Assembly (NCBI GenBank): GCA_017530365.1
Contig: JAFXMK010000036.1
Span: 39,886-103,885 of the forward strand
Reading direction: 5' to 3'
DNA from: Bacteroidales bacterium
GTDB lineage: Bacteria > Bacteroidota > Bacteroidia > Bacteroidales > F082
Length of the DNA: 64,000 bases
The notes under the pieces were generated by a model. The model was given only the letters and a program-made list of their open reading frames with translations, was not told the DNA's origin and made no database searches. Shown piece after piece: positions 2 through 63,869 of the stretch (the first letter of the stretch is position 1; every line of letters starts with the position of its first letter). The translations under genes were made by a program, and so were the position numbers.

Positions 2-3000
2 GTCGAAGAGACTAAGTCTCAACGACTCGTTGGCAGCACCAACGAATGGGTCCTTGACAATTATTATATGATCAGCGAACAGGAAAAAGTGCTGAAGATC
101 GACCTCCAAAGCAAGGATTTCAAGAGGTTGGAAGGCCCTCGCATGGACTATCTTGAGCAGCTAATTCACGATTTTCTGATCCGCTGCCATTATCAGTTCG
201 ACAAAGGCATGCTTTTCAACCACCTGCTTCAGGTGCAGGAAGAGAAACAGGACTACCTCTCCTACCCCGAGGTCTGTGCTCTGCTCCCGCTGATGAAATG
301 CATCCTGCTGAAAGACCTGGCGACGCTGTGCCGACAGCTGAAGTCCGAAAACGCCTACCACTACTCTCCCACCGACCGCGCCCAGGCCGACATGGAGAAG
401 TTGGACATGGCCGCCCGTCAGAACCTAATGATGATGAACCTCTTCAACTCCTTGAAGAAGATGACCAAACTGCCGGTGTCGGAACTCATCGACAGCGTTA
501 GCTATTCCGAGAAGATGCTCAAGGAAGAGAAGGCGGATATGTACGACCAGATGTACGACCGCACCAAGGACGATTATCGCGCCATGATCACCCGACTCTG
601 CAAGAAACGCAAAGTCAAAGAGCACGACCTTGTGAAGGATCTGGTGGTCAAAGCCGACGAAAAAGGCGAACATGTGGGCTGGCAGCTCTTCCCGCCTAAG
701 AAATGGAACGCCCGCGCCCATTGGTATGTATGGATCGTGGTGCTGGCTTCGCTAGGCTTGGCCTTCGGCTTCGCCTATTGGGCCTTCGGACTCGGCTCCA
801 CTCGCGACATCTGGTTCACCATCATACTTACCATCTTGATGTGGGTGCCCATGAGCCAGATCATCATCGACCTGTTCAACCAACTGTTGTACAAGATACA
901 CAAGCCAGTCAACACCTTCAAGATCAAGTTCAAAGACGGCTTGATCCCTAAGGAATACGCCACCATGGTCATCATGCCGACCATCTTGAAGAACAAGGCC
1001 AGGACCGTCGAGCTGCTGGAACAGCTGGAGGTTTACTATCTCTCCAACATCAACCGCGCCAGCGAGGGACAGCGTCTGGAGAGCCGTCCCCAGAACCTCT
1101 TCTACACCCTCATCGGCGATGCCGCCGCAGGTCCCAACGAAGACATGCCTTGGGATAATGAAGTGGTTGAGGCTGGTCTTGCAAAAGTAAAGGAACTCAA
1201 CGAGAAATATGGCGCTCCAATCTTCAACTTCGTCTATAGAAGACGTGCCTGGAGCGACGGCGAGAACTGCTGGCTGGGACATGAGCGCAAACGTGGCGCC
1301 ATCTTGCATTTTAACGACCTGGTCTTAGGCAACACCAGCGAAGCCGAGAAGCAGAAACGCTTCCGCTGCGAGACCATCAGCGCCTGGCAGCAGCTAGCTG
1401 TTCCGGAAATCCAGTTCATCATCACCTTGGACACCGACACCGAGTTAGTGCTTTATTCCGCACAGAAGCTCATCGGCGCCATGGCACATCCGCTGAACCG
1501 CGCCCAGCTGTCGCCCGACGGCAAACGCGTCAACGCCGGTTACGGCATCATGCAGCCCCGTGTCAACGTCGATGTGGAAGTCACCAACAAGAGCCGTTAC
1601 GCCCAACTCTTCGCCGGTCTGGGCGGCCTCGACGTCTATACGACCGCCTCGTTCGAGCTGTATCAGGACATCTTCAACGAAGGCTCCTTCTGCGGCAAGG
1701 GCATCTACGACCTGAAGGTCTTCCAAAAAGTGCTGAAAGGCACCTTCCCTGAGAACCTCATCCTCAGCCACGACCTCATCGAAGGATGCCATATCCGCTG
1801 CGGCCTCATCAACGACCTGGAGCTGTTCGACGACAACCCATCCAACTACATCGACGACGCCAAGCGTCACCACCGCTGGACCCGCGGCGACTGGCAGATC
1901 ATCGGATGGCTGCGTAACAAGGTACGCAACGAGAAAGGCGAGAAAGTCAAGAACCAAGTCAACACCATCGGCCGCTGGAAGATCTTCGACAACCTGCGCC
2001 GCTCCGTCTTGAGCCTTGCCTTGATGGTCGTCATCATCTTCGGCTTCACTATTCAACTTTCAACTTTCAACTCTCAACTTTCAACTATCTCCCCCTTCTG
2101 GTACGTGCTCATCGCCCTGATCGCCGTGGCCAGCCCCATCGTCTTCTTCATCCTGGGACAAATCACAAAGCTTCCTAGCTTTGGAAAACGATACCACTAT
2201 TACGCCACCTTGATGCGCGGTTTCCGGGTGATCATCTATCGCTCTTTCGTCCAGTTCGCCTTGCTGCCCAAGGAAGCCTGGATGTACACTGATGCCTTGA
2301 TTCGCGCCTGCTACCGTCTATGGTTCAGCCACAAGAACCTCCTCAACTGGATTACCAGCGACGAAGCCGCCAAGAGCACCAAAGGTACCCTCGGCGACTA
2401 TATCGGCAAGTTCTGGTTCAACTATGTCGCCTCTGCCATCTTGATCGCCTTGTACATCCTCAGTCCAGGCAGTGTCCTCGCGCTGATCGCTTTGATATTC
2501 TGCGTTGTGGCCTGGTGTGGCGCTCCCTTCCTGATGTTCTGGCTCGGCAAGAAATTCCCGCAGGACAAGAAGAACCTCAGTGCCAAAGAGACAGAGGAAA
2601 TCCAACAACTGGCCAAGGACACCTGGCATTTCTTTGACCAGCAGATCACGTCGGAGACGAATTATCTCATCCCCGATAACTACCAGCTAAACCGAGAGAA
2701 GAAGGCCGACTACAAGACCTCCCCAACAAATATTGGCTACTCCATTACCTCCATCATCTCCGCTTCGGAACTGGGCTTCATCACCCAAGAAGAAGCTGTG
2801 GAACGCCTCGGGCATGTCATCGACACCGTCGAAAACCTGGAGAAATGGAACGGACACCTCTTCAACTGGTACCATGTCAACACTTTGAAAGCACTGCCTA
2901 ACTTCTTCATCTCCACCTGCGACAGCGGCAACTTCGTGGCATGTCTCTATACCTTGAAAGGGTATTTGATAGAAGTCAGTAGTCAGAAGGAAGAAGTAAG

Positions 3001-6000
3001 AAGTTTGATTGAGAGGGTTCAGAAATTGATTGAGGAGACGGATTTCTCCAAGCTGTATAATCCTGAATTGGATGTGTTCAGCATCGGTTACGACTATGGC
3101 GCCCATGCCCTCCTGCCCTACCATTACAACAACTTCGCCTCGGAGGCCCGACTCACCAGTTTCCTCACCATCTCACAAGGCGATGCGCCATATAAGCACT
3201 GGTTCTGCCTCGACAAGACCCTGGTCCAATACAAGGGTTACAAGGGCGTGGCTTCCTGGTATGGCACCCTCTTCGAATACTTCATGCCGCTCATCTTCCT
3301 GCCCACCTACAAGCACACCCTCATGGACGAGACCTATAGCTTTGCCGTGAGGGCGCAGAAGGCGTTCATTAAGAATTTAGAAGGAAGAAGCAAGAAGCAA
3401 GAATTGCCGTGGGGTATTTCTGAGACAGCTTATAACGAGTTGGACGATGCCCAGAACTATAAGTACCACGCCTTCGGTGTGCCGTACCTCAAGTTCCAGA
3501 ACACCACACCTGACCGTATCGTCATCTCGCCTTACAGCTCACTGCTGACCATCAGCGTCAACGACAAGGCGGTGTACGACAACCTGCAGCGGTTCAAGAA
3601 GCTCAACATGTACGACAACATGGGCTTCTACGAGAGCTATGACGAGGATGACCATGTGCCAGTGCTGGCCCATTACGCACACCACCAAGGCATGATCCTA
3701 GCCTCTCTCGCCAACTACCTCGGCGGCCACTGTTTGCAACACTACTTCATGCAAGAACCCGTCTTCAAGTCCATGGAGACCCTGTTGAAGGAAAAGGCCC
3801 AGGTACAGCCTTACATCGACCTAAAAGTCACGCAATACAAGCGTTACCAATACTCCAAGGTGCAGACCGAAAGCGATGCCCGCGACTACGACGGCATTGC
3901 CAACGTACCAGAGATCGGTGTGGTCAGCAATGGCCTCTACACTGTGCTGCTGAACGACCGCGGTTCGGGATTCTCTCGCTATCGCAACATACTCATCAAC
4001 CGTTACAGGAAGATCTCTGCCGACCATTATGGCACCTATCTTTATATTAGGAACCTGCGAAACGACAAGCTCTGGTGCAACACCTATTCCCCACTCGATG
4101 TGATGCCGTCGCAATATCGCGTGAGTTTCGCCTCCGACAAGGTGAGCTTCATGCGTGTGGATGACGAGATCGAGACCAAGACCGAAGTCACCGTCGTCAA
4201 GGATTACTTCGCGGAGATCCGCCGCTTCACCTTCACCAACACAAGCGACATGGACGTCGACCTTGAGATCACCAGCTATGGCGAAGTCGTCATGGCACCG
4301 CGTGAGGCAGATGCTGGGCACCGTGTGTTCAACGGCATGAAGATCCTCAGCGAATACGACAACGAGCACGAAGCCTTGATCTTCAGCAAACCTTCGCAAG
4401 ACAAACAAGACGCTTACTACTATGTCCTCCACAAGCTCTTTGTTGATCAGCCTGAGTTCACCAACGACAAGGCTAACTCCAACATCGTCAACTCAAGCTT
4501 GGTGGAATACGAGACGTCCAGGATCAAGTTCCTCGGCCGTGGCGGCAGCATACGTCATGCTCACGTCATCGACAACCACCGCACCTTGAGCAACACCGTT
4601 GGCACCACCCTCGACCCGATCATGAGCATGCGGCGTCGTATCCATGTCCCAGTCGGCAAAGCCGTCTCCGCCTTCATCATCACTGGCTTTGCCAAAGCCA
4701 AGGAACAGCTGTACCAGCTGGCAGAGCAATACCGTAATTCAGTGGATATCGAGGATGCCTTCAAGAAATCATCGGTTTTCAACAACATGCGTACAGGCAT
4801 GTCCCTGTTGAAAGGCTCACAGATGCGTCTCTACAACAGCATCTCGAAATACATCCTCCAGACGGCCACCTTTGGCGACCAGCGTCAGGAGCTGCTGGCC
4901 AAGAACACCCTCTCGCAAAGCGGTCTGTGGCGCTTCGGCATCAGCGGCGACCATGCCATCGTCCTCATGGAGATCGACGACATCAACAAGTCGGGATTCG
5001 CCAAGGAGATGCTTCGCGCCTTCGAATACTACAAGGTGCACGGCATGGTACTCGACCTCGTCTTCATCAACGATGTGCCGGGCAATGACCACGACGGCCT
5101 CACTCACTTCATCCGCAACATGGCCAACACCGAGCATCTCTGGGCCACCCATGAACAGACTGGCAAGGTGTTCATCCTCAATGGCAACGATCTTACCGAT
5201 GAAGAACGCATCCTGCTCCGCACCGTGGCACGCATCGACTTCAACAACCACGAGCGCATCGAGCAACAGCTGCAACGGCTCGAGACCATCAACCAGAAGT
5301 ACCAGGACAAGGTGGAGTATCCCGTCATGAAGCCAAGTGCCCAATACCACGTGTGGAGCTCGCTCGACTTCTACAACCAATACGGCGGCTTCGACCGCGA
5401 CGGACGCGACTATGTGGTGACCAACACCAACACCCCGATGCCATGGATCAACGTCATCGCCAACCCACGCTTCGGCTGCATCGTCAGCTCTACCATGGCA
5501 GGCTTCACCTTCGCCCATAACGCCCAGCAGTTCAAGCTCACGGGCTGGAGCAACGACATCGTTCGCGACAACGCCTCCGAGATGCTGCTTATCAACAAGA
5601 AGCAGTTCGTTCCCGCCACGGCACGTCATGGACAAGGCTTCTCCGCCTTCGACGCACAATACGACGAAATCGACGTCAAAGTTCGTGTGTTTGTCGCCTT
5701 GGAGCGCCTCGAGAAATACTACCAGATCAAGATCGACAACAAGACCAACGAAGACCTCGACTTGCAGCTCGACATGGTCTATAAACTCGTGTTGGGCAAC
5801 ACCGAGGAGAAGACGGCACGTTACCTCTACTCCGAATGGGATGAGGATTCGAGCAGCATCTTCGTGCGCAACGTCTATCACGAACAGTACCGCGATACCT
5901 GGGTACAGCTCACGGCAGTCAGCGACGACATGAAGGGCAACGGCTTCGACTATTCACTGAAATACCCGAACCGCAAACGCCTCGGCATGACGGTGAAGGT

Positions 6001-7585
6001 GCCGGCTAACGGCGAGAGCGCCATTGCTTTCATCATCGCAGTACCTGAAGACGGCAAGCGTCAATCAAGCCAATACACCAAGGCGATGATCGATGCCGAA
6101 TACGACAAGGTAGTCCGTTTCTGGGACGAGAAACTCAGCACCATCCAGGTGGAGACCCCCGACAAGTCGTTCAACTACATGCTGAACCGCTGGTACCTCT
6201 ACCAGGTCTATGCCTCACGTCTCTTTGCGCGTGCCGGCTTCTACCAAGTCGGCGGCGCCACTGGCTTCCGCGACCAGCTACAGGACGTGATGAGCTGCCT
6301 CTACAGCGATCCTGGCTACGCCCGACGTCAGATCCTCGACCATGCGGCACATCAATTCGCCGAAGGCGACGTGTTGCACTGGTGGCATGAGAGCTTACAA
6401 CTCGGCGCCCGCACCACCTTCAGCGACGACTACCTGTGGCTCGTCTATGTGGCTTATCAATACATCAGCGTCACCGGCGACCTCAGCATCCTCACCGAGG
6501 AGGTGACGTTCTGCCAGGCCGAGATGCTCTCACCCGGCGAAGCCGAGAAATGCCTGCACTATATGCCATCTTACCATAAAGCCAGCTTGTTCGAGCACCT
6601 GCGCCGTTCCATCAACAGATCCATGAGCAGGATCGGCTCGCACGGTCTGCCGCTGATGGGCTGCGGCGACTGGAACGATGGCATGAGCCGTGTCGGTGTC
6701 GGCGGCAAGGGCGAGAGCGTTTGGGTAGCCTTCTTCCTCTGCGACCTGTTGCCCAAGATGGAGGACCTCACCCAGAAGATGCCCGATGCCGACCTCAGCT
6801 ATTGTGAGGAGCTGTCACAGTTCCGTTGCAGGCTGGTCAAGGCGTTGCAAGACAATGCCTGGGACGGCTTCTGGTTCCTCCGTGCCTTCTTCGACAACGG
6901 CAACCCGATGGGTTCACGCAACAACACTGAATGCCAGATCGACCTCATCTCACAGGCTTGGAGCATCCTCACCGACGTCGCCACGCCTGAACAGAAGAAC
7001 TCCATCTTCCGTGAGACCGACGGACGTCTGGTCAACCGTGAACACGAGATCATCCAGCTCCTCACCCCTGCCTTCAAGAACTCTGCCGACGACCCGGGTT
7101 ACATCATGCAATACCCAGTGGGTGTTCGCGAAAACGGCGGACAATACACCCACGGTGCCATGTGGTATATCATGGCGCAGCTCAAGGAAGGCCGCAAGGA
7201 CATGGCGTACTTCCTCTATTCGCTCATCAACCCGATCCACCGCACCCAGTCGCTCGCCGACGTGCTCAAATACAAGGTGGAGCCGTACTGTATCGCAGCC
7301 GACATCTACAGCAACCCGCAGCATCCAGGCCGCGGTGGCTGGACCTGGTACACTGGATCGGCCTCATGGGCCTATAAGACTGGTATCGAGAACATCTTAG
7401 GATTCCACAAGGAAGGCAACAGGCTTACCATCACGCCGCATGTGCCGACCGACTGGAACGAGTTCAGCATCTGCTATCGCTATGGCAACAGCATCTACCA
7501 CATCAATTACAAGAAGGGTGAAGAGAACGCCTCAACCGTGATTGACTTGGTTGACGACGGCAATGAACATGAGGTTCGTATTTAA
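2..7585 (+). CDS. Cyclic beta-1,2-glucan synthase-like GT84/GH94 protein (5' end outside window)
   Basis: Very large membrane glycan synthase/phosphorylase of the NdvB/Cgs type. The first ATG in the window is at 68, but the frame stays open to the left edge and upstream codons read NEWVLDNYY, the usual N-terminal family motif (EWLLDN), so the true start lies outside. Counting from that ATG: paired membrane segments near 218-270; a GT84 core with DxD-like LDTDT near 455 and HHRWTRGDWQI near 601-611; more membrane segments near 655-700 and 780-826; a glucoamylase-like middle region with LPWGISETAYN; and a C-terminal GH94 region with GDWNDG near 2197-2202, whose Asp is the expected phosphorylase acid. 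By family it would make and length-trim beta-1,2-glucan. Short tandem repeats interrupt it near 2052-2087 (peptide QLSTFNSQLST) and 3383-3403. Its stop overlaps the stop of the convergent LolA-like gene. Whether the product is cyclic beta-1,2-glucan in this lineage is inference. Confidence 0.9.
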   Translation, partial: VEETKSQRLVGSTNEWVLDNYYMISEQEKVLKIDLQSKDFKRLEGPRMDYLEQLIHDFLIRCHYQFDKGMLFNHLLQVQEEKQDYLSYPEVCALLPLMKCILLKDLATLCRQLKSENAYHYSPTDRAQADMEKLDMAARQNLMMMNLFNSLKKMTKLPVSELIDSVSYSEKMLKEEKADMYDQMYDRTKDDYRAMITRLCKKRKVKEHDLVKDLVVKADEKGEHVGWQLFPPKKWNARAHWYVWIVVLASLGLAFGFAYWAFGLGSTRDIWFTIILTILMWVPMSQIIIDLFNQLLYKIHKPVNTFKIKFKDGLIPKEYATMVIMPTILKNKARTVELLEQLEVYYLSNINRASEGQRLESRPQNLFYTLIGDAAAGPNEDMPWDNEVVEAGLAKVKELNEKYGAPIFNFVYRRRAWSDGENCWLGHERKRGAILHFNDLVLGNTSEAEKQKRFRCETISAWQQLAVPEIQFIITLDTDTELVLYSAQKLIGAMAHPLNRAQLSPDGKRVNAGYGIMQPRVNVDVEVTNKSRYAQLFAGLGGLDVYTTASFELYQDIFNEGSFCGKGIYDLKVFQKVLKGTFPENLILSHDLIEGCHIRCGLINDLELFDDNPSNYIDDAKRHHRWTRGDWQIIGWLRNKVRNEKGEKVKNQVNTIGRWKIFDNLRRSVLSLALMVVIIFGFTIQLSTFNSQLSTISPFWYVLIALIAVASPIVFFILGQITKLPSFGKRYHYYATLMRGFRVIIYRSFVQFALLPKEAWMYTDALIRACYRLWFSHKNLLNWITSDEAAKSTKGTLGDYIGKFWFNYVASAILIALYILSPGSVLALIALIFCVVAWCGAPFLMFWLGKKFPQDKKNLSAKETEEIQQLAKDTWHFFDQQITSETNYLIPDNYQLNREKKADYKTSPTNIGYSITSIISASELGFITQEEAVERLGHVIDTVENLEKWNGHLFNWYHVNTLKALPNFFISTCDSGNFVACLYTLKGYLIEVSSQKEEVRSLIERVQKLIEETDFSKLYNPELDVFSIGYDYGAHALLPYHYNNFASEARLTSFLTISQGDAPYKHWFCLDKTLVQYKGYKGVASWYGTLFEYFMPLIFLPTYKHTLMDETYSFAVRAQKAFIKNLEGRSKKQELPWGISETAYNELDDAQNYKYHAFGVPYLKFQNTTPDRIVISPYSSLLTISVNDKAVYDNLQRFKKLNMYDNMGFYESYDEDDHVPVLAHYAHHQGMILASLANYLGGHCLQHYFMQEPVFKSMETLLKEKAQVQPYIDLKVTQYKRYQYSKVQTESDARDYDGIANVPEIGVVSNGLYTVLLNDRGSGFSRYRNILINRYRKISADHYGTYLYIRNLRNDKLWCNTYSPLDVMPSQYRVSFASDKVSFMRVDDEIETKTEVTVVKDYFAEIRRFTFTNTSDMDVDLEITSYGEVVMAPREADAGHRVFNGMKILSEYDNEHEALIFSKPSQDKQDAYYYVLHKLFVDQPEFTNDKANSNIVNSSLVEYETSRIKFLGRGGSIRHAHVIDNHRTLSNTVGTTLDPIMSMRRRIHVPVGKAVSAFIITGFAKAKEQLYQLAEQYRNSVDIEDAFKKSSVFNNMRTGMSLLKGSQMRLYNSISKYILQTATFGDQRQELLAKNTLSQSGLWRFGISGDHAIVLMEIDDINKSGFAKEMLRAFEYYKVHGMVLDLVFINDVPGNDHDGLTHFIRNMANTEHLWATHEQTGKVFILNGNDLTDEERILLRTVARIDFNNHERIEQQLQRLETINQKYQDKVEYPVMKPSAQYHVWSSLDFYNQYGGFDRDGRDYVVTNTNTPMPWINVIANPRFGCIVSSTMAGFTFAHNAQQFKLTGWSNDIVRDNASEMLLINKKQFVPATARHGQGFSAFDAQYDEIDVKVRVFVALERLEKYYQIKIDNKTNEDLDLQLDMVYKLVLGNTEEKTARYLYSEWDEDSSSIFVRNVYHEQYRDTWVQLTAVSDDMKGNGFDYSLKYPNRKRLGMTVKVPANGESAIAFIIAVPEDGKRQSSQYTKAMIDAEYDKVVRFWDEKLSTIQVETPDKSFNYMLNRWYLYQVYASRLFARAGFYQVGGATGFRDQLQDVMSCLYSDPGYARRQILDHAAHQFAEGDVLHWWHESLQLGARTTFSDDYLWLVYVAYQYISVTGDLSILTEEVTFCQAEMLSPGEAEKCLHYMPSYHKASLFEHLRRSINRSMSRIGSHGLPLMGCGDWNDGMSRVGVGGKGESVWVAFFLCDLLPKMEDLTQKMPDADLSYCEELSQFRCRLVKALQDNAWDGFWFLRAFFDNGNPMGSRNNTECQIDLISQAWSILTDVATPEQKNSIFRETDGRLVNREHEIIQLLTPAFKNSADDPGYIMQYPVGVRENGGQYTHGAMWYIMAQLKEGRKDMAYFLYSLINPIHRTQSLADVLKYKVEPYCIAADIYSNPQHPGRGGWTWYTGSASWAYKTGIENILGFHKEGNRLTITPHVPTDWNEFSICYRYGNSIYHINYKKGEENASTVIDLVDDGNEHEVRI
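2052..2087 (+). repeat. 7-bp tandem repeat CAACTTT inside the GT84/GH94 gene
   Basis: Nearly five units of CAACTTT/CAACTCT lie between two membrane segments and encode the low-complexity stretch QLSTFNSQLST. The insert stays in frame and falls in a loop, where it is probably tolerated. Confidence 0.85.
3383..3403 (+). repeat. Short 7-bp repeat GAAGCAA inside the GT84/GH94 gene
   Basis: About two and a half units of a GAAGCAA-type heptamer encode EGRSKKQE just before the conserved LPWGISE motif. A related, more degraded tract (AGTAGTCAGAAGGAAGAAGT) lies near 2977-3002 in the same gene. Confidence 0.55.
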
Positions 7586-8109
7586 TATTTCATCTCGTAG
7601 GTGTTGACAATGCCGTTGGCCTCTTCCAGGATCATCTTGACCAGCATGCCGTCCGACATGCGGTAGGTCAGATCCACCGAAGAATAGCCACCACGAGACA
7701 CCTTGCCTTTGGCCTTGATGATCACATGACGTAACCCGTTGGCCTCTTCAACGGTGGTCTCCGCGTTGTTGTCGATGGCAGCCTGTTCCCAGTTGCCCGA
7801 TATGCAGTTCAGCAGTGTGGAACGCTGCAACTTGACCATCTTTACTTTGTCGGCATTCAACTCGGCTTTCTTGCCGTCGAGGTTGATCTTAACCTTATTC
7901 CCTTCCACATGGAAATACTCGCCTTCCGGCTCAGAATAAACCATGGAAAGCTGGTCCTTGCCATCGAAGGTAAGATGGCCAGCTTTGTTGGTGGTCTTCC
8001 CCGAAACCTTGATCACGCGGGTTTGGGTGAAGTCGATGTCGTACTGTGTTTGTGCAAAGGTTGCCACGGCGAACAGCACCATGGCAAAAGTCAGTATAAT
8101 TCTTCTCAT
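7582..8109 (-). CDS. LolA-like periplasmic lipoprotein/lipid carrier
   Basis: A 175-aa protein with a clear signal peptide (MRRIILTFAMVLFAVATFAQ). The mature part has the LolA-type order of short beta-strand segments: a 'GHLTFDGKDQLSMVY' strand, 'PEGEYFHVEGNKVKINLDGKK', and a C-terminal 'DLTYRMSDGMLVKMILEE'. LolA folds carry lipoproteins or other lipids across the periplasm. Here it is the last gene of a lipid-linked string: its ATG overlaps the stop of the ACP gene by four bases, so it is translationally coupled to ACP and PlsX. This resembles the ACP/LolA pairing of aryl-polyene or flexirubin-type clusters, but no ketosynthases are visible, so a general lipid-carrier role is safer. It ends in convergent overlap with the GH94 gene. 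Confidence 0.7.
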   Translation of the reverse strand: MRRIILTFAMVLFAVATFAQTQYDIDFTQTRVIKVSGKTTNKAGHLTFDGKDQLSMVYSEPEGEYFHVEGNKVKINLDGKKAELNADKVKMVKLQRSTLLNCISGNWEQAAIDNNAETTVEEANGLRHVIIKAKGKVSRGGYSSVDLTYRMSDGMLVKMILEEANGIVNTYEMKY

Positions 8110-8333
8110 TGTTTTATGCTATCTAAAAAGGCGACCACATCGCCAATAGTTTCAAATTTTGCCAGTTCTTGATCGGGAATGACGATGCCATAGTCGTCCT
8201 CGAGTCGCATGAGCAGCTGAAGGATGTCCACTGAATCGGCACCGAGGTCTTTCTTGATTTGAGCGTCAAGGGTCACCCTATCAGGTGACACACGCAGTTG
8301 ACGCGCTAGGATTTCTTTTACTTGTTCAAACAT
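8106..8333 (-). CDS. Acyl carrier protein
   Basis: A 75-aa acidic helical protein with the 4'-phosphopantetheine site GADSVDILQLLMRLEDDYGI; the Ser of DSVD at about residue 37 is the attachment point. DSVD in place of the usual DSLD suggests a specialised rather than primary fatty-acid ACP. It sits directly downstream of plsX and overlaps the LolA-like gene, so its acyl cargo may be fed to PlsX or to an exported lipid. The purine-rich region ahead of the ATG is made of a GTAAGAA-type heptamer repeat. Confidence 0.9.
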   Translation of the reverse strand: MFEQVKEILARQLRVSPDRVTLDAQIKKDLGADSVDILQLLMRLEDDYGIVIPDQELAKFETIGDVVAFLDSIKQ

Positions 8334-8334: not shown

Positions 8335-8354
8335 TTCTTACTTCTTACTTCTTA
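8335..8354. repeat. 7-bp tandem repeat TTCTTAC between plsX and acp
   Basis: Nearly three units of TTCTTAC (GTAAGAA on the coding strand) fill the whole plsX-acp gap. The tract contains the plsX stop codon and supplies the purine-rich leader in front of the acp ATG, so repeat number could change the spacing of the ribosome-binding region. Confidence 0.7.
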
Positions 8355-10645: not shown

Positions 10646-11515
10646 TCAACGATGTTTGGCGTGGAAGCAGATGCCGACGCCGTTGGGGCCGCAGTGGCTG
10701 CCGATGGTCGGGTTGACCACCGTGGTCACCACGTTGAGGTCCTCGCCGAACTTTTCCTTCAGGAGCTGGACGGCCTCGTCGGCGATCTCGGGACAGTCGC
10801 TATGACCGACGACCACACGGTGTGCCTTGACGTCTTCGCCGAGCTCTTCGACATACTGCACCAGACGGGCGATGGCTTTGGCACGACCCTTCTCCTTGCC
10901 GATGGAGACCATCTTGCCTTCGTCGTTCAAGTAGATGATAGGACGGATGCCGATGAAGCCTCCCATAGTGGCTGCCAAGCCGCTCACACGGCCGCTGCGG
11001 CGGAAGAACTTCAGGTCGTCGGCGAAGAAATACATGGGGAACTTCGGGACTTCCACCTTGGCCCATTCCACGATCTCCTCGGCGGTCTTGCCAGCCTTGT
11101 ACATCTCGGCGCATTCAAGCACTACGTTGTACGACAAGGCGGTGATGCCTAGGGTATCGACGGAATAGAACTTCCTCTCGGGATACTTCTCCTTCAGCTT
11201 AGCCACGGCCTGATCCATGATGGTGAAGGTGTTGGACGTGCCTGATGAGAAGTGCACATAAAGGATGTCGTTCCCAGCCTGGAACTCAGGCTCGAAGTAC
11301 TGGATATAGGCCTCTTCGCTCATGGCGCTGGTGGTCGGCATGGTGCCGGCACGCAGCATGTCATAGAACGAATGGGCATCGAACACGTCGAAGTCGATGT
11401 AGGGGTAGATTACTTTGTCGCCCACGGTGTATGGCATGCTGATCATCTTGATGCCATACTCGGCACACTCCTTGGGAGTGATGTCGCAATCTGTATCGCT
11501 ATAAAATACTAACAT
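10646..11515 (-). CDS. fakB: DegV-family fatty-acid-binding protein FakB
   Basis: Binds a fatty acid and presents its carboxylate to FakA for phosphorylation, giving acyl-phosphate for phospholipid synthesis. Length is 289 aa. DegV/FakB motifs are all visible: N-terminal FYSDTDCDI, PTTSAMSEE, HFSSGTSNTF for carboxylate binding, KFFRRSGRVSG, and the C-terminal GSHCGPNGVG. The gene overlaps the end of fakA by seven bases, so the two partners are translationally coupled. The pair near plsX suggests scavenging of exogenous or recycled fatty acids. Confidence 0.92.
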   Translation of the reverse strand: MLVFYSDTDCDITPKECAEYGIKMISMPYTVGDKVIYPYIDFDVFDAHSFYDMLRAGTMPTTSAMSEEAYIQYFEPEFQAGNDILYVHFSSGTSNTFTIMDQAVAKLKEKYPERKFYSVDTLGITALSYNVVLECAEMYKAGKTAEEIVEWAKVEVPKFPMYFFADDLKFFRRSGRVSGLAATMGGFIGIRPIIYLNDEGKMVSIGKEKGRAKAIARLVQYVEELGEDVKAHRVVVGHSDCPEIADEAVQLLKEKFGEDLNVVTTVVNPTIGSHCGPNGVGICFHAKHR

Positions 11516-13158
11516 AAAACAAAAATATAGTCATAAACCGGCTGTAAGCCGCAATTCAAAATGATTTCAAGATTCTTGTATTCTTTTTGGAGATCCGCCA
11601 CCAAATGTTCGGCTTCTTCTTCTGGGACGTCTTTGCCGTAAAACACCAGCATTACGTCACGGGAGCTGGCATCCAGCTTACGGCACAAGTCCATCGCCGC
11701 CTCCGTCCGCACAGGACTGTCGCTGAGCATCTGCTTGCCGCTGTATCCCACGTAGTCGCCTTTATGGACCTCCACCTCCCCTTCTGCGTCACGGATGGCC
11801 GTGGAGACGAGACCTGTCGTGACCGACTCCATCATCTCTGTGACGCTGGCGATGTTTTCCTCCACGTTGGGATTGTCGCGGTCGATGAAGCCGATGCCGT
11901 AATAGCCTTCTCCGATGGTGTTCGACGGCATCACATGGATATCGGCTTTTTTGTAGAGCTCGGCGGCTTGTTCGGCAGCCATCTTGATGTTCTTGTTATT
12001 AGGGAAGACGAGGATGTGCTGGGCGTTGATCCTTGCGAAGGCATCCAGGAAGTCCTGGGTAGATGGATTCATGGTCTGACCGCCTGCGATCACCTCGTCG
12101 GCCCCGATCTCGTGGAAAGCTTTGATCAAACCCTCGCCGGAAGCGACAGTGACGATACCGTATTTCTGAGGGGAGAGGTTAGAGGTTAAAGGTGAGAGGT
12201 GAGAGGTTAGAGGTGAGAGGTTTTGATTGTGCTGGAGCGACATGTTCTCGATCTTGATTGTCAGGAACTCGCCGTATTGTTGCATCTCGTTGAGGATGAC
12301 GCCAGGCGTGAAGGTATGCACATGCACCTTCACGATGGTACCTTCACGGAAGGCCACCACCGACTCGCCCACACGGTTCAGGTAGTCGATGATCACCTGC
12401 TCGTCAAAGGTTTCCAAATCCACTTTGGAGCGCATCAGACGCAGCAGGAACTCCGTGCAGTAGCCGAATTCGAGCTTGCTGTCCTCGTTGAACTTGTCGA
12501 GGTCAACAGCAGGAGCTGCTGGCGCGGAAGTCGGTATCAGTTCCTCTTCGCTGGTCTGGCCGCACAAGGCCTCGTTCATGCCGCGGAAGATGCAAAGCAG
12601 CCCCGCTCCCCCACTGTCCACCACACCGGCATCCTTCAGCACTTGAAGCAGCTCCGGCGTGTGATCCAACGACACCTGCATCGCTTGGAGCATGGTTTCG
12701 AAATAATGGTTTATGTCCTGTGAGGCATCGGCGGCTTCAACGCCTTCGCGAAGCACGGTGATGATGGTGCCCTCCACAGGAATCGGGATGGCTTTATACG
12801 CCTCCGTAACGGCAGCGGACATGGCATCAGCGAAGGCTTTGGTATCCGCCACTTCTACGCCTTGCAAGCCTTTGGCGAGGCCCGCAAAGATGCGTGACAA
12901 GATCACGCCCGAGTTGCCACGGGCACCTAGAAGCATACCGGATGAGGCAGTCTGTGCTGTCATTGCGAGCTTAGCGAAGCAATCCAATGACGAGACACCC
13001 GCCTTTAGGGTCATCAGCATGTTGTCGCCCGTATCCCCGTCGGGGATGGGAAACACATTCAAGTCGTTGATAAGGTTCTTTTCTCTTCCAAGAGCCACTG
13101 CCCCTTGACGGAGCATGGCCGCAAAAATCAAACTATCTAATTCTGTTGTCCTTTCCAT
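11509..13158 (-). CDS. fakA: Fatty acid kinase FakA (DhaL/DAK2 domain, YloV-like)
   Basis: ATP-dependent kinase that phosphorylates FakB-bound fatty acid. The N-terminal DhaL domain shows NVFPIPDGDTGDNM and GARGNSGVILSRI (ATP/Mg site), followed by DAK1-like and DegV-like C-terminal regions, 549 aa in all. Two repeat-derived stretches interrupt the normal sequence. One is LDCFAKLAMT, encoded by a GTCATTGCGAG-type repeat between the kinase motifs. The other is LSPLTSHLSPLTSNLSP, encoded by seven heptamer units in the middle linker. Both are in frame, so the protein is probably functional. The start overlaps the end of the MMPL exporter gene by 22 bases. Confidence 0.92.
   Translation of the reverse strand: MERTTELDSLIFAAMLRQGAVALGREKNLINDLNVFPIPDGDTGDNMLMTLKAGVSSLDCFAKLAMTAQTASSGMLLGARGNSGVILSRIFAGLAKGLQGVEVADTKAFADAMSAAVTEAYKAIPIPVEGTIITVLREGVEAADASQDINHYFETMLQAMQVSLDHTPELLQVLKDAGVVDSGGAGLLCIFRGMNEALCGQTSEEELIPTSAPAAPAVDLDKFNEDSKLEFGYCTEFLLRLMRSKVDLETFDEQVIIDYLNRVGESVVAFREGTIVKVHVHTFTPGVILNEMQQYGEFLTIKIENMSLQHNQNLSPLTSHLSPLTSNLSPQKYGIVTVASGEGLIKAFHEIGADEVIAGGQTMNPSTQDFLDAFARINAQHILVFPNNKNIKMAAEQAAELYKKADIHVMPSNTIGEGYYGIGFIDRDNPNVEENIASVTEMMESVTTGLVSTAIRDAEGEVEVHKGDYVGYSGKQMLSDSPVRTEAAMDLCRKLDASSRDVMLVFYGKDVPEEEAEHLVADLQKEYKNLEIILNCGLQPVYDYIFVLC
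12174..12222. repeat. Seven-unit AGAGGTT/AGAGGTG/AAAGGTG heptamer tract inside fakA
   Basis: Seven consecutive 7-bp units (49 bp) encode the LSPLTSHLSPLTSNLSP insert between two FakA domains. An equally long seven-unit tract of the same family lies inside manC. Confidence 0.9.
12961..12989. repeat. GTCATTGCGAG...GAAGCAATCC dispersed repeat inside fakA
   Basis: The sequence GTCATTGCGAGCTTAGCGAA followed by GCAATCC encodes the in-frame DCFAKLAMT stretch of FakA. A variant of the same core lies at the 3' end of the TPR gene near 53121-53152. Repeats with this core recur in many bacterial genomes. Confidence 0.7.
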
Positions 13159-20303: not shown

Positions 20304-20318
20304 CGTCGTTATTTTTTG

Positions 20319-43008: not shown

Positions 43009-43012
43009 AGTT

Positions 43013-46741: not shown

Positions 46742-47334
46742 CCTCGCCCCTGGGCGCTTGGACTATCGCTCATCATCCTCTTCCATTTAAAATACCCGAA
46801 CACCGCGATCACCACATAAAGACCGTAAAGGCCCGCCTTGAAAGGAATGTCTTTGTAAAAATAGAGTCCGCAGGTGACGATATCAACGATGATCCAAACG
46901 AACCACTGCTCAAGATATTTTCTGGCCAAAGCCCAGATGCCCACGATGCTTAAGGCCGTGGTGAAAGCATCGAGAACGGGAACCGTGCTGTTGGTGAAAC
47001 GCGACAACACAAAGTAAATGAGCGCCCAAACAACCGCCGCGACAAACGCCCAAAGCAATGCCATCTTTTTCGGTATATGACGGATCGGCAACTCCTTGGT
47101 CTTCTGCTTATGCCGCATCCAGGCGATAAAGCCATATACCGTCATGGCTAGATAGTAAAACTCCATGCCACAATCGGCATACAGCCCCTTCTGATAATAC
47201 AACACGATGCCCAGCGACTGCATGAAGAATCCAACCACCCACATCCAAACACTGGCCTTGTATTCCAACAGAATATACGCCAACCCCAACGCCGTCGTCG
47301 TTATATCCAACCAATGTGCCGTCAAAAATTCCAT
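46735..47334 (-). CDS. pnuC: PnuC-family vitamin transporter
   Basis: A 199-aa inner-membrane protein with about seven hydrophobic segments. PnuC landmarks are WLDITTTALGLAYILLEYKA near the N-terminus, FFMQSLGIVLYYQKGLYADC, and the C-terminal WFVWIIVDIVTCGLYFYKDI. Members carry nicotinamide riboside, riboflavin or thiamine. It stands between ugd and the CapD-like gene and has no visible riboswitch, so its vitamin cannot be assigned. Thiamine is possible because a thiamine-regulated TonB receptor lies about 12 kb away, but the two are not co-transcribed. Confidence 0.9.
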   Translation of the reverse strand: MEFLTAHWLDITTTALGLAYILLEYKASVWMWVVGFFMQSLGIVLYYQKGLYADCGMEFYYLAMTVYGFIAWMRHKQKTKELPIRHIPKKMALLWAFVAAVVWALIYFVLSRFTNSTVPVLDAFTTALSIVGIWALARKYLEQWFVWIIVDIVTCGLYFYKDIPFKAGLYGLYVVIAVFGYFKWKRMMSDSPSAQGRGE

Positions 47335-47387
47335 ATCGCCGATTCTACCGATTCTACCAAGCTTTAACCCCTACGGGGTTTCCCTCC

Positions 47388-47470
47388 AACCTCTAACCTT
47401 TAACCTTTAACCTTTAACCTTTAACCTTTAACCTTTAACCTTTAACCTCTCACCTCTCACCTCTCACCTT
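47388..47470. repeat. Long AACCTTT/CACCTCT heptamer tract between pnuC and the CapD-like gene
   Basis: Eleven full units plus a partial one, the longest such tract in the window. It ends inside the CapD-like gene: the TGA stop of that gene is part of the repeat. A small hairpin AACCCC-TAC-GGGGTT lies just before it. Confidence 0.95.
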
Positions 47471-49395: not shown

Positions 49396-49458
49396 TCTCT
49401 TATCTTTTATCTCTTATCTTTTATCTCTTATCTACAATCTCCCATCCACAATCTCTCT
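49396..49458. repeat. TCTCTTA/TCTTTTA heptamer tract overlapping the end of the TviB-like gene
   Basis: Five clean units grade into variants (TCTACAA, TCTCCCA, TCCACAA, TCTCTCT). The last residues (EREIVDGRL) and the stop codon of the sugar dehydrogenase are encoded by this tract. Confidence 0.85.
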
Positions 49459-50718
49459 CTCCAAAATCCCCTTTACATCGTAAATCACGCCACCTTCCTT
49501 AACCAACGACTTCACGTCCATGTCGAGGAACTCCTTGTGGGAAACGGCGAGGATGACAGCGTCGTAGGAGTGAGGAGTGAGGAGTGAGGAGTGAGGAGTA
49601 ATTTCAACACCATATTCTTCTTTGACATGGGCGGGGCTGGCCCAGGGGTCATAGACCGTGATGTTGTGGGTGTATTCCTCGAGGGTGTGGTAGATGTCAA
49701 CCACCTTCGTGTTGCGAATGTCGGGGCAGTTTTCCTTGAAGGTAACACCCAAGATCAGGATCTTCGCGTCCTTCACCAGCACACCTTTCTTGTTCATGCA
49801 CTTGATCGTCTGGTTGGCCACGTAAGCACCCATGCCATCGTTGAGGCGTCTCGCAGCCCGCATGATACGCGGCAGCACGCCATATACCTGCGCTTTCTGG
49901 ATCAGGTAATAAGGATCGACCGAGATGCAGTGTCCGCCCACGAGTCCGGGACTCAGCTTAATGAAGTTCCACTTGCTCGAGGCGGCTTCGATGACGTCGT
50001 GTGTGTCGATACCCATGGCATTGAAGATCTTCGCCAGTTCGTTCATGAAGGCGATGTTCACGTCGCGTTGGCTGTTCTCGATGATCTTGGAAGCCTCTGC
50101 CACCTTGATACTCGGCGCCTTGTGCGTGCCATTCACTAAAACGCTATTATAGATGGCATCCACATAGTCGGCGATCTCAGGCGTGGAGCCAGAAGTCACT
50201 TTTTTGATCTTCTCCACGGTATGTTGTTTGTCGCCCGGGTTGATGCGCTCTGGGCTATAGCCGGCATAGAAGTCCACGTTAAACTTCAGCCCACTGACAC
50301 GCTCCACCACGGGAAGGCACTCCTCTTCGGTTACGCCTGGATACACGGTGCTCTCATACACCACCACGTCGCCTTTCGAGATGACCTTGCCGACGGTCTC
50401 GCTAGCACCCCACAGGGGCTTCAGGTCAGGACGGTTGTCGCTGTCAACGGGGGTGGGCACGGCGACCACATAGAAGTTGCATTTCTTGATTTCCTCAAGG
50501 TTGGTAGTGCAACGGAATCCGTGGTTCTTGATGGCATCTTGCAGGAGGTCGTCCGCCACTTCGAGGGTGGCATCGTGGCCCGTCATCAGGGCATCCACAC
50601 GGGATTGGTTCATGTCGAAGCCGATGGTTTCATATTTCGTTGAGAACAGCCTGGCCAGCGGAAGTCCCACATAGCCAAGGCCTATCACACAGATTTTTGT
50701 CTCATTAGGGGTATTCAT
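49432..50718 (-). CDS. Nucleotide-sugar dehydrogenase, TviB/WbpO-like
   Basis: A 428-aa UDP-sugar 6-dehydrogenase expected to make a UDP-HexNAc uronic acid. N-terminal Rossmann ICVIGLGYVGLPLARLF, then VAVPTPVDSDNRPDL, YESTVYPGVTEEECLPV, GYSPERINPGDK, the active-site Cys in GLVGGHCISVDPYYL, and GVTFKENCPDIRNTK. PGDK and VDPYY favour the TviB/WbpO class over Ugd. A GTGAGGA heptamer tract inserts TPHSSLLTPHS between EYGVEI and YDAVILAVSH, still in frame. It heads the minus-strand glycan genes after a promoter shared back-to-back with recR. Confidence 0.92.
   Translation of the reverse strand: MNTPNETKICVIGLGYVGLPLARLFSTKYETIGFDMNQSRVDALMTGHDATLEVADDLLQDAIKNHGFRCTTNLEEIKKCNFYVVAVPTPVDSDNRPDLKPLWGASETVGKVISKGDVVVYESTVYPGVTEEECLPVVERVSGLKFNVDFYAGYSPERINPGDKQHTVEKIKKVTSGSTPEIADYVDAIYNSVLVNGTHKAPSIKVAEASKIIENSQRDVNIAFMNELAKIFNAMGIDTHDVIEAASSKWNFIKLSPGLVGGHCISVDPYYLIQKAQVYGVLPRIMRAARRLNDGMGAYVANQTIKCMNKKGVLVKDAKILILGVTFKENCPDIRNTKVVDIYHTLEEYTHNITVYDPWASPAHVKEEYGVEITPHSSLLTPHSYDAVILAVSHKEFLDMDVKSLVKEGGVIYDVKGILEREIVDGRL
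49571..49598. repeat. TGAGGAG heptamer tract inside the TviB-like gene
   Basis: Four full units plus flanking partials encode LTPHSSLLTPHS. The same unit family, in the other orientation, lies inside aroE. Confidence 0.88.
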
Positions 50719-53158: not shown

Positions 53159-53656
53159 ATGAAAAATTATCTCTATATATTCCTGATCTCCATGATCCCG
53201 CTGATTGAGCTCCGCGGTGCCATCCCTGTGGCCTACGGTATCAAAGCCGCCATGGACAACCCCGCCGACTTCAACCTGCTGTGGGCTTATATCATCATCG
53301 CCGTGGGCAACATGCTGCCGGTGCCATTCATCTTTTTCTTCGCCCGCCGCGTGCTGGAATGGGGCAAGGACAAGAAATACATCGGAAGATTCTTTACCTG
53401 GTGTCTCACCAAAGGCGAGAAAGGTGGCGAGAAGCTGAAAGCCAAGGCTGGACGCGGCCTATATGTCGCCCTGTTGCTCTTCGTCGGCATCCCGTTGCCC
53501 GGCACTGGTGCCTGGACGGGAACGCTAGCCGCCAGCTTCCTCGACATGGACTTCAAGAAGAGCGTCATTGCCGTGATCGGTGGCGTGATACTTGCCGGGG
53601 TCATCGTCGGAGTGCTCTGCACCCTAGGCTTCGGAGCCCTCTTCGGCATCCATTAA
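53159..53656 (+). CDS. Small multidrug export-like membrane protein (PF06695 type)
   Basis: A 165-aa membrane protein: MKNYLYIFLISMIPLIELRG, then AIPVAYGIKAAM and IIIAVGNMLPVPFIFFFARR, and the glycine/proline-rich FVGIPLPGTGAWTGTLAASF. These are the re-entrant-loop motifs of this DedA-related family. Its substrate is unknown. The earlier ATG at 53120 overlaps the repeat and TPR gene and is rejected. Its stop codon falls in the first heptamer of a tract that leads into aroE. Confidence 0.85.
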   Translation: MKNYLYIFLISMIPLIELRGAIPVAYGIKAAMDNPADFNLLWAYIIIAVGNMLPVPFIFFFARRVLEWGKDKKYIGRFFTWCLTKGEKGGEKLKAKAGRGLYVALLLFVGIPLPGTGAWTGTLAASFLDMDFKKSVIAVIGGVILAGVIVGVLCTLGFGALFGIH

Positions 53657-53675
53657 CCTCTAACCTTTACCCTTT
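53655..53675. repeat. Short AACCTCT/AACCTTT/ACCCTTT tract linking two genes
   Basis: Three units fill the gap between the exporter stop (TAA, first unit) and the inferred TTG start of aroE, which overlaps the last unit. Confidence 0.75.
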
Positions 53676-54408
53676 GAACCTCTTCGGACTCATCGGTCAT
53701 CCCCTCGGTCACTCTTTCTCGAAGGCTTATTTTACAGCAAAATTCGAGAGAGAAGGCTTAGATTGCGAGTATCAAAACTATGACATCGAAGATATTTCAA
53801 TTATAAAACAATCCAACCTGACTGGATTCAACGTCACCATCCCTTACAAAGAAGCCATCATTCCCTATCTCGACGAACTGGACCCAGCGGCCAAGGAAAT
53901 AGGCGCCGTGAACACCGTGAAAGTGTTTCCCAACGGCAAAATGACTGGATACAACACCGATGTCATAGGTTTTTCTGTCGCTCTTCACTCCATACTCCTC
54001 ACTCACCACTCCTCACTCCTCACTCCTCACTCCGCCTTGGTCCTCGGCACCGGCGGCGCATCGAAAGCCGTTCAATACGTTCTGAAAAAGCACCGCATCG
54101 CCTTCCAACTTGTAAGCCGCGATCCTAAAAAAGGCAATCTCACCTACGCCACGCTAAAACCCGACATCATCAAATCACACCTTCTAATAATTAATACCAC
54201 TCCAGTGGGCATGGCACCCGACAACAACATGGCGCCTAACATCCCATACGAAGCCATCTCCGATAAGCACGCCTTGATCGACCTGATCTATAACCCCGAG
54301 GAAACACTGTTTTTAAAAAATGGCCACGAACATGGCGCCACCACCACCAACGGCCTCGCCATGCTTCATGCGCAAGCCGAAGCCTCGTGGAAAATTTGGA
54401 ACTCCTAA
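53674..54408 (+). CDS. aroE: Shikimate dehydrogenase
   Basis: Reduces 3-dehydroshikimate with NADPH. No ATG is available; the protein begins at or near the TTG giving (M)NLFGLIGHPLGHSFSKAYF, whose GHPLxHSxS motif must be near the N-terminus. It has the catalytic Lys in FNVTIPYKEA, Asp in YNTDVIGF, and nucleotide-binding LVLGTGGASKAVQY; C-terminal NGLAMLHAQAEASW is complete. A heptamer tract inserts LLTHHSSLLTPHS between the substrate- and cofactor-binding domains, in frame. Length 244 aa, normal to slightly short. Confidence 0.92.
   Translation: MNLFGLIGHPLGHSFSKAYFTAKFEREGLDCEYQNYDIEDISIIKQSNLTGFNVTIPYKEAIIPYLDELDPAAKEIGAVNTVKVFPNGKMTGYNTDVIGFSVALHSILLTHHSSLLTPHSALVLGTGGASKAVQYVLKKHRIAFQLVSRDPKKGNLTYATLKPDIIKSHLLIINTTPVGMAPDNNMAPNIPYEAISDKHALIDLIYNPEETLFLKNGHEHGATTTNGLAMLHAQAEASWKIWNS
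53994..54033. repeat. ACTCCTC heptamer tract inside aroE
   Basis: Between five and six units (ACTCCTC, one ACTCACC) encode SILLTHHSSLLTPHSA at the domain junction. Confidence 0.88.
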
Positions 54409-58195: not shown

Positions 58196-58999
58196 ATGAA
58201 AATCATCCTCGCTACCGACTTCAGCAAAGAAAACCAAATGCTCGTACCCTACGCCCTCGACCTCTTGCGGCCTACGGGTGGCACCATCGTGCTGTTTCAC
58301 GCCTACATGGACCATTTCGAGGTGAACGATGCCAAAGCCACAGCTGAAGAATCCATGCGCCAGAGCATGGCCTACCTTAACGGTGAGATAGAGAAACAAG
58401 GGCTGACGAACATCGAGATCATCCCCGAACTGATGGACGGCTATCCCGAGCAACAGCTGCTCCATCTGACCCGCGAGATCCAGCCCGACCTGGTGCTGAT
58501 GGGCACTCGTGGCCGCGGCAGGAAAGGCTTCCTGGAAGGCAGCATGTCGAAAAGCCTGATGAGCAAGTCGCCCGTACCACTGCTCTCGATCCACGAGGAA
58601 TACCAGTACAAGCCCAACAACGAGGTGCTGTATGTGACTAACTTCGACAAGACGGACGCCAACTCCATCGCACGAGTGTTCGACATCCTGAAGCCCTACC
58701 AGCTGCATCTCCATGTGGTCAACTTCATCATGGATGGCGAGCCGTCCAAGGCGGCACATCAGATGAAAGAGCTGGAAGAGACCCTGAAATACATGAACCT
58801 CAACGGTGAGCTTTGCTTCAAGCTGATCTACAACAGCAGTCCCCGCGACGGCATGAAGGCGTATTGTGCCGAAAACAACATCAGTCTGGCCGCCTTCATC
58901 CCCCACCGCCGCCACTTCTGGGACATCTTCTTCCGCGACACCGTCACGAAAAACGATTTCTTCGACCTGCATATTCCGTTGCTCACTTTTCATAAGTGA
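58196..58999 (+). CDS. Universal stress protein, two-domain
   Basis: A 267-aa protein with two Usp folds. The first (MKIILATDFSKENQMLVPYA) has the ATP-binding motif GTRGRGRKGFLEGSMS near residues 103-118. The second (NEVLYVTNFDKTDANSIARV) lacks it. It is co-transcribed with the metal exporter. The TGA stop is the first part of an AGAGGTT heptamer tract. Confidence 0.88.
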   Translation: MKIILATDFSKENQMLVPYALDLLRPTGGTIVLFHAYMDHFEVNDAKATAEESMRQSMAYLNGEIEKQGLTNIEIIPELMDGYPEQQLLHLTREIQPDLVLMGTRGRGRKGFLEGSMSKSLMSKSPVPLLSIHEEYQYKPNNEVLYVTNFDKTDANSIARVFDILKPYQLHLHVVNFIMDGEPSKAAHQMKELEETLKYMNLNGELCFKLIYNSSPRDGMKAYCAENNISLAAFIPHRRHFWDIFFRDTVTKNDFFDLHIPLLTFHK

Positions 59000-59096
59000 G
59001 AGGTTAGAGGTTAAAGGTTAAAGGTTAGAGGTTAATGGTTAAAGGTTAGAGGTTGGAAAAAAACTCTCACCTCTAACCCCTAAACTTTAACCTTTT
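58999..59096. repeat. AGAGGTT/AAAGGTT heptamers followed by the inverted form
   Basis: Eight units (58999-59054), a GGAAAAAAA spacer, then the complementary orientation (CTCACCTCTAACCCCTAAAC... to about 59096). The two arms can pair into a long imperfect hairpin that may stop transcription between uspA and the riboswitch. The uspA stop codon overlaps the first unit. Confidence 0.85.
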
Positions 59097-63800: not shown

Positions 63801-63813
63801 AGAAAAGTTTGTA

Positions 63814-63869
63814 GTTGATCAGTTGGAAGTTGTTCAGTTAACTTTAAACTGATCAACTGCCAACTGAAA
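63814..63869. repeat. Degenerate CAGTTGG-type repeat with inverted arms
   Basis: GTTGATCAGTT (63814-63824) and AACTGATCAAC (63847-63857) are perfect complements, with CAGTTGG/CAACTGCCAACTG units around them, between the DPP III gene and the rRNA terminator. Confidence 0.65.

Follow-up and report, generated by a model that had tools for sequence, protein, structure and literature searches.

Dispersed heptamer arrays in a Bacteroidales genome, and close relatives with different repeat units at the same site

How does a bacterial genome come to carry tandem arrays of several different units, all with a period of 7 bp, scattered through its genes and gaps? The question is raised by a 64,000-nucleotide stretch from a Bacteroidales bacterium of GTDB family F082 (assembly GCA_017530365.1, contig JAFXMK010000036.1). 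This stretch, here called the window, occupies positions 39886–103885 of contig C34 of the source genome, G000, an assembly of 2.67 Mb in 50 contigs that is 88% complete. The unexpected result of comparing the arrays with those of close relatives is unit swapping: at the same spot, a relative sometimes carries another kind of unit, and arrays may be copied over one another. We tentatively favour a model in which heptamers of a few related, strand-asymmetric kinds would come to form short, scattered arrays through ectopic copying, 7-bp slippage and selection on the sites where the arrays survive, an account that we hold to be quite possible, if short of probable.

Heptamer arrays and their exchange at orthologous sites

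An earlier note on this DNA claimed a dozen or more strict 7-bp tracts in genes and gaps, and two scans of the window agree with it. Tandem Repeats Finder (TRF) reports thirteen 7-bp arrays between 2052 and 59054 (three of the tracts listed below begin slightly later in its output, at 19589, 47388 and 59001), and exact period-7 runs of at least 12 matches number 10, against 0.0 expected from 20 first-order Markov shuffles. Exact runs also occur at multiples of 7 (nine at period 14, seven at 21, five at 28 and two at 35); across periods 3–40 the only other periods with an exact run are 11 and 23, one each. Most tract positions in that note hold, but two are weak: the run at 53655 is degenerate, and the one at 63814 is both degenerate and quasi-inverted, with no TRF row at score 40. 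Arrays of other periods in the window are one of 11 bp at 21684–21718 and one of 11/23 bp at 46694–46741, and further TRF rows have units of 9, 10, 12, 15, 24 and 25 bp.

The proposed concentration of periods at 7 was examined both in the window and across a source-genome sample of 490,645 bases, where 7 and its multiples prevail: 61 tracts have period 7, 31 period 14, 15 period 21, 6 period 8 and 5 period 23, and no non-multiple of 7 exceeds 6 tracts. A single order-2 Markov shuffle, run for periods 5–9 only, gave 0 tracts. Period 7 thus stands far above other periods, as it does in dispersed bacterial heptamer simple sequence repeats. It is also dominant, together with its multiples, in samples of G072 (628,983 bases), G031 (100,000) and G064 (58,801). 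In smaller samples of 63–80 kb each, period-7 tracts number 0 in G001, 3 in G065, 5 in G062 and 1 in G051.

The closest relative is G072, whose contig C7 is collinear with the last 19 kb of the window (main blocks at 79–95% identity) and whose mean identity to the source genome is 90.1% over 309,688 aligned columns of sampled DNA. From larger samples, comprising 104 tracts in 890,645 bases of the source genome and 126 tracts in 1,013,769 bases of G072, sites in G072 were located by the 300-bp flanks of every source tract, and tracts with no ortholog in the sampled stretches were dropped (59 of 104 and 77 of 126, respectively). Families are our own grouping of units. Of the source tracts, 45 of 104 could be placed in G072, where 25 belong to the same family, 2 to a near one and 7 to a different one, and 11 are absent; in the reverse direction 49 of 126 were placed (25 same, 2 near, 8 different and 14 absent). 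At some sites called absent (C22:92661, C22:117977) the same family is still present as a weak tract, and empty sites are few and often rearranged.

Within the window, 12 of the 13 tracts were placed in G072. Judged by eye, five have switched family (2052, 8335, 21499, 45396 and 49566), of which the automated comparison called four different and one, 2052, near; the family is kept at seven sites (2971, 3379, 12174, 47383, 49396, 53981 and 58999). Site 2052 is exactly 35 bp in both species, with AGTTGAA units in one and mainly AGTGAGG units in the other, and at 45396 the AGTT edges are retained while the interior is exchanged. All seven different pairs link two of the five main families, and the units of switched pairs differ at 1–3 of 7 bases. 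Copy-number differences between relatives run in 7-bp steps, again as in dispersed bacterial heptamer repeats. The comparison of orthologous loci suggested in the earlier note finds most of the placed tract sites kept between the two genomes and the family sometimes exchanged. The window tracts are as follows.

2052–2086, minus strand: AGTTGAA-type array within the GH94-type open reading frame 68–7585 (plus strand), C-rich strand coding; mostly AGTGAGG-type at the same site in G072
2971–3004, plus strand: AGAAGNN array within the GH94-type frame 68–7585; shared with G072
3379–3403, plus strand: AGAAGCA array within the GH94-type frame 68–7585; identical in G072
8335–8354, minus strand: AGAAGTA array immediately 5′ of the start codon of called gene 8106–8333 (minus strand); a palindromic element and an AGGAGTG array in G072
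12174–12222, plus strand: AGGTKAR array in the fakA-like gene 11509–13158 (minus strand), between domains
19581–19636, plus strand: AGGTKAR array in the nucleotidyltransferase gene 19239–20321 (minus strand)
21499–21524, plus strand: AGTTGGC array, 7 bp shorter than its AGTGAGG-type counterpart in G072, within a DegT-type aminotransferase gene
45396–45427, plus strand: AGTTGGC array in the second UDPG/MGDP dehydrogenase 45120–46544 (minus strand); AGTT edges with AGGTGAG interior in G072
47383–47470, minus strand: AGGTTAA/AGGTGAG array of about 12 units, upstream of gene 46735–47334 (minus strand) and abutting the end of gene 47464–49380; far shorter in G072
49396–49433, minus strand: AGATAAR array 5′ of the Polysacc_synt_2 gene 47464–49380 (minus strand), G-rich strand sense; same family in G072
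49566–49599, plus strand: AGGAGTG array in the UDP-sugar dehydrogenase 49432–50718 (minus strand), in a loop that differs across the genus
53981–54033, minus strand: AGGAGTG array in the shikimate dehydrogenase-like frame 53281–54408 (plus strand), downstream of the Pfam match; a palindromic element and the same family in G072
58999–59054, plus strand: AGGTTAR array between gene 58196–58999 and a TonB receptor gene; 21 bp shorter in G072

A thiamine pyrophosphate (TPP) riboswitch (Rfam RF00059, 59109–59214) lies just past the last array, ahead of the TonB receptor gene, and a minus-strand 5S rRNA (63913–64000) is cut by the window end. A low-GC block at 24001–44000 (0.39–0.43, compared with 0.51–0.55 near the window ends), whose open reading frames are mostly on the minus strand, has no period-7 TRF row. 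A sequence of about 100 bp at 51430–51533 matches six other places in G072, on both strands, and is possibly a small dispersed element.

The source and G072 tracts together form a set of 230, in which orthologous sites enter twice. By family they comprise 69 AGTKAGG, 52 AGGTKAR, 36 AGAAGNN, 24 AGATAAR, 13 AGTTGGC and 36 others, so that one unit recurs at many unrelated loci, as in dispersed bacterial heptamer repeats. On their G-rich strand the arrays hold 3.7% C and 36% G in the source genome (69 tracts) and 2.3% and 38% in G072 (93 tracts), a contrast partly helped by orienting every tract to that strand; C content is 1.4% in G031, 11.3% in G064, 9.2% in G051, 7.2% in G062 and 2.3% in G065. 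The earlier note took the units to be unrelated, a claim that does not stand given the C depletion common to one strand and the fit of four of the five main families to a loose RRNRGTN. By our own reading of the units, the main families look like variants of one such pattern, AGATAAR alone lacking the GT.

Species differ sharply in array content. In a set of 99 genomes from the GTDB genus, 18 match AGGTKARAGGTKARAGGTKA, the highest count being 234 hits, and 19 match GTGAGGAGTGAGGAGTGAGG when at most one mismatch is allowed; a reversed-sequence control for the latter search is uninformative because the repeat reads nearly identically backwards. Among 295 genomes drawn from the order, AGTKAGGAGTKAGGAGTKAG is matched in 7, with more than 4 hits only in the source genome (49) and in G184 (112), a member of another family. 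In 68,749 bases of G184 chosen around hits, 8 tracts have period 7, 11 period 14, 5 period 8 and 4 period 9.

Arrays inside conserved enzymes

The fakA-like array lies between FakA-like_M (amino acids 230–312) and FakA-like_C (334–546), and for this protein the earlier claim of tracts at domain junctions of conserved enzymes holds. A search with the protein found relatives mostly in rumen and gut metagenome assemblies, and 28 of 72 loci were examined. Heptamers lie between the anchors in the source genome and in L031, very probably the G072 locus, where they span 51 nt, and 27 of 27 other loci have a 36-nt linker of one length without heptamers (that of L043 measures 39 nt only because its match begins one residue later). 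On this comparison the heptamers have replaced a linker of constant length, and are not a pure insertion. The G072 gene (L031:10001–11749) also carries a REP-like palindromic element (GTCATTGCGAGG...CGCAATGAC) in frame near amino acid 57, of which the source gene keeps only part, at about 12950–12990 of the window. Tracts within 200 bp of a palindrome half-site number 16 of 126 in G072, compared with 2 of 200 random intergenic points, and 5 of 104 in the source genome, compared with 7 of 200.

Searches with the dehydrogenase and the nucleotidyltransferase matched 84 and 85 of the 99 genomes, and the best 30 loci of each were analysed. The UDP-sugar dehydrogenase loop is 27 nt long and free of repeats at 21 of these loci and holds a heptamer array at 7, with five different commonest units among the seven. 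On the G-rich strand they are AGGAGTG in the source genome, AGAGGTG/T in G072, AGAGTTG in G013 and G082, AGTTGGC in G031, AGAGGTT in G017 and AGAGTTT in G090; the G-rich strand is sense in G090, opposite to the other six arrays. The loops of G034 and G064 are longer and contain no callable array; that of G064, taken by eye for a heptamer array, was not counted, as the caller scored 6 and placed it outside the loop. A tree of the dehydrogenase without the loop groups G090, G017, G082 and G064 (99/95) and the source genome with G072 (95/87), the rest being largely unresolved, and on this tree one gain with losses and several gains would both be possible. Three further relatives of the enzyme lie on viral contigs at 31–55% identity and were not used further.

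For the nucleotidyltransferase, the array of the source genome measures 57 nt, the AGAGGTG array of G031 is shorter, and G092 has a 78-nt stretch with an AGAGTTT array. Six loci at 79–81% identity have 21–27 nt without such an array, and 21 loci at 51–55% identity have 42–57 nt without visible heptamers. The G031 match (L278, G031:C28) is split over two frames at its array. A frame difference is also seen in the DegT-type gene at 21499, which is open through the array in G072 (427 amino acids) and split at it in the source genome, into halves at 20404–21432 and 21444–21677; the split may reflect genuine switching, decay of the gene or a fault in the assembly.

Placement, array ends and the origin of the arrays

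The orientation of the arrays bears on where they might serve a function. If selected, AGAAGNN and AGATAAR arrays would act as unstructured purine-rich 5′ leaders, and pairs of AGTKAGG and AGGTKAR arrays as gene-end hairpins, an explanation that we regard as distinctly improbable. In its favour, 133 of the 230 tracts are intergenic though 88% of bases are called coding; in intergenic arrays upstream of genes the G-rich strand is sense in 82 cases and antisense in 18; and sense-strand tracts within 25 nt of a start are enriched for AGAAGNN (10, 2.4 expected) and AGATAAR (9, 2.3 expected). Neighbouring arrays up to 200 bp apart in the source genome, G072 and G031 are mostly inverted with the G-rich array first (20 pairs, as opposed to 2 C-first and 5 direct, orthologous pairs counting twice). 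Convergent genes flank 33 tracts. However, the AGGAG-containing AGTKAGG shows no such enrichment near starts (4, 3.2 expected), 97 of the 230 tracts lie inside called genes (C-rich strand sense in 50, G-rich in 47, of which 25 are at the 3′ end), 11 of the 45 placed source sites have no called G072 tract, and the gene starts come from a simple in-house caller. A Shine-Dalgarno role for the AGGAG-containing family was rejected on the same lack of enrichment near starts.

Inverted pairs and array ends add to this asymmetry. A less strict scan gave 18 inverted pairs with a common unit, all 18 of them G-first. At C22:120975 the hairpin loop of the source genome is the exact reverse complement of the G072 loop, and at the site of G072 C1:103993 the loop is likewise reverse-complemented, with two mismatches. 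AGTKAGG arrays begin at AGT in 37 of 68 cases and end there in 42 of 68; in a stricter set of 67, 41 end in GGAGT before an A and 10 in GGAG before a G, in genes and gaps alike, and 8 of 13 AGTTGRC arrays end at AGTT. We found no clear flanking motif beyond the first bases past the array. Copying of whole arrays would give such set ends and is one possible cause of them. Taken together, the strand asymmetry, the end phase and the G-first order of the hairpins suggest activity at the 3′ end of the G-rich strand.

That one strand is indicated by its C-poor composition, by the preferred 3′ phase of AGTKAGG and by the G-first pairs could also point to a dedicated template-copying enzyme, a reverse transcriptase or transposase adding heptamers to the G-rich 3′ end in the manner of telomerase. 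We consider this very unlikely. In searches limited to RVT_1 and Y1_Tnp, with 20 genomes each, no RVT_1 match, which a telomerase-like or DGR-type origin would lead one to expect in every array-rich genome, was found in array-rich G064, G037 and G079, so a reverse transcriptase seems not to be required, with the limit that these three genomes are only 82–90% complete; no Y1_Tnp match was found in G002, rated 100% complete, or in G037. Movement by a Y1 transposase, of the kind known for REP sequences and miniature inverted-repeat transposable elements (MITEs), was rejected on the same absence from array-rich G002 and G037.

Indels between the source genome and G072 were counted in local alignments (blast blocks of at least 500 columns and 80% identity), a count that misses large differences ending a block. 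Outside tracts, 5 of 419 indels of up to 30 bp are 7 bp long, and none is a tandem duplication. Because 7-bp indels are not enriched there, a general 7-bp slippage bias is not supported, and a general mutational or polymerase bias toward 7 bp was rejected. It follows that local duplication of 7 bp is unlikely to be the main way in which new arrays begin, and that a slippage bias set by the polymerase footprint, a hypothesis cited by Rehm (2015, PMC4692102, as far as the parts compared go), is not enough. Inside tracts, indels of 7, 14 and 21 bp number 11, 6 and 3, and those of 2 bp number 5.

These data are consistent with the model that we favour, in which template switching or gene conversion, guided by short stretches of matching sequence, would carry a copy of one genomic array to another site or write it over an array already there, so that the family changes whole and the site stays. 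Units would then be gained or lost in multiples of 7 bp, and such copy-number differences are what we observe between species. Selection would set where arrays persist, namely in intergenic gaps, purine-rich sense 5′ leaders, hairpin-forming gene ends and loops, at the surface or between domains, that tolerate the encoded peptide; leader orientation and loop peptide tolerance are best read as such selection on survival. No dedicated enzyme would be needed. Families present at dozens of loci that exchange at fixed sites fit ectopic copying by conversion or template switching. In part this bears out the reading of the earlier note: one period is common to genes and gaps, and the presence of the same families at dozens of loci, with switching at orthologous sites, is a sign of copying as opposed to local origin. 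Its suggestion of a polymerase process fares less well, as the sequence outside tracts shows no general polymerase bias toward 7 bp.

A serious rival is evolution in place, in which mutation of one unit would be followed by spread of the variant, by slippage, within the array that holds it, and several such rounds would shift the family with no copying between loci; we judge it possible, if doubtful. It is supported by blocks of variant units within one array (at C22:116796 of the source genome, three AGAAGCA are followed by four AGAAGTA), by G184 arrays that grade from TAGAAAT through TATGAAT to TAGGAGT, and by the distance of only 1–3 bases between switched units, with one-base neighbours in the dehydrogenase loop. 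It is opposed by the finding that all seven different pairs join families that are already common, by the inverted orientation of the G090 array, and by the lack of flagged arrays midway between families in the source genome and G072. Moreover, a single 7-bp slip breaks the coding frame, yet the switched arrays at 2052 and 49566 keep their length.

Several observations weigh against ectopic copying. The model leaves period 7 itself without explanation. No donor array was traced to a recipient, and 0 of the 230 arrays, a set in which the double entry of orthologous sites is itself a caution, were flagged as mosaic, though ectopic copying might leave mosaics. The family is kept at most sites (25 of the 34 source tracts with a G072 tract), and switched coding arrays align best in register, at 0.62–0.65 identity, which either account allows. 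The graded arrays of G184 favour in-place evolution there, and AGAGTTG and AGAGGTG in the dehydrogenase loop are one base apart. Inside tracts, 1-bp indels (14) outnumber 7-bp ones (11) and 6-bp indels equal 14-bp ones (6 each). The hairpin loop is not inverted at two other sites, C22:77652 of the source genome and C5:51866 with G072 C12:104188, the orthology of the GATAATTGT loops at the latter pair being assumed. A sharp end phase is confined to AGTKAGG and AGTTGRC, with AGGTKAR, AGAAGNN and AGATAAR more spread.

An extended form of the copying account, which we think unlikely, would have a shared species-specific pool of arrays overwriting one another across the chromosome through copying at the G-rich 3′ end, with enzyme loops rewritten with the common family, possibly by an unknown dedicated activity. 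That the arrays are artefacts of metagenome bins is scarcely credible. The named relatives are metagenome assemblies, and a single erroneous unit could account for the broken frame at 21499; but the source arrays, of about 18–90 bp, recur at the same sites in independent assemblies and are shorter than the usual reads.

Relation to known heptamer repeats

The STRR heptanucleotides of heterocystous cyanobacteria are dispersed tandem repeats of period 7, a likeness that holds at the level of description. In phase-variable simple sequence repeats, gain or loss of units can break the reading frame; the frame at 21499, which differs from that of G072, is alike in this respect, in a comparison of two species only. 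The earlier note knew heptamers from STRR, and other heptamer arrays are known too (PMC4679880, PMC4692102), so that, going by the parts of these papers compared, such arrays are an already known kind.

TAACTGA heptamer direct repeats occur in Beggiatoaceae, Cyanobacteria and some Bacteroidetes (MacGregor 2015, PMC4679880). In the portions consulted, they resemble the present arrays in being dispersed, often just upstream of start codons and sometimes at peripheral places in open reading frames, in showing 7-nt indels between strains and relatives with shorter gaps and no obvious repeats, and in their limited phylogenetic distribution, with other heptamers mixed in Microcystis. They differ in that one unit dominates the Beggiatoaceae genome and its near variants are rarely repeated, whereas the source genome has several related families, which can differ at orthologous sites. 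Of 69 source tracts, 1 (C9:40542) has TAACTGA as its commonest unit, and TAACTGA is not the dominant repeat.

The GGGNATC heptamers of Xanthomonas and Nostoc (Rehm 2015, PMC4692102) are likewise, in the sections compared, dispersed, biased toward intergenic places, found as inverted pairs and often kept at a site between species with variation in length and sequence. In contrast, their unit forms G-quadruplexes and is preferred in fours, while the main families here lack GGG. Arrays of the form AGT(KAGGAGT)n number 21 at n=2, 17 at n=3 and 16 at n=4, with neither a GGGNATC-type unit nor a preference for four units. The compared parts of that paper report no unit switching, and among the matches listed in a search of open-licence papers no report of it was found by title or abstract start; none was found that pairs such repeats with Bacteroidetes, Bacteroidales or Prevotella. 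PMC6749651, in the part seen, describes non-coding satellites of prokaryotes as rarely transposed.

The usual explanation of simple repeats in bacteria is slippage that acts on the sequence of the spot. In the present genomes the array family can differ between close relatives at a fixed site, even in conserved enzymes, and 7-bp indels are rare outside arrays. If the array-pool reading were true, it would mean concerted evolution of dispersed short arrays in a bacterium. If unit swapping is confirmed in strains, these genomes would provide an example from bacteria of concerted evolution among dispersed tandem arrays, the arrays would be a means by which new protein loops, leaders and hairpins arise, and the recurrence of heptamers in unrelated bacteria would become a testable question.

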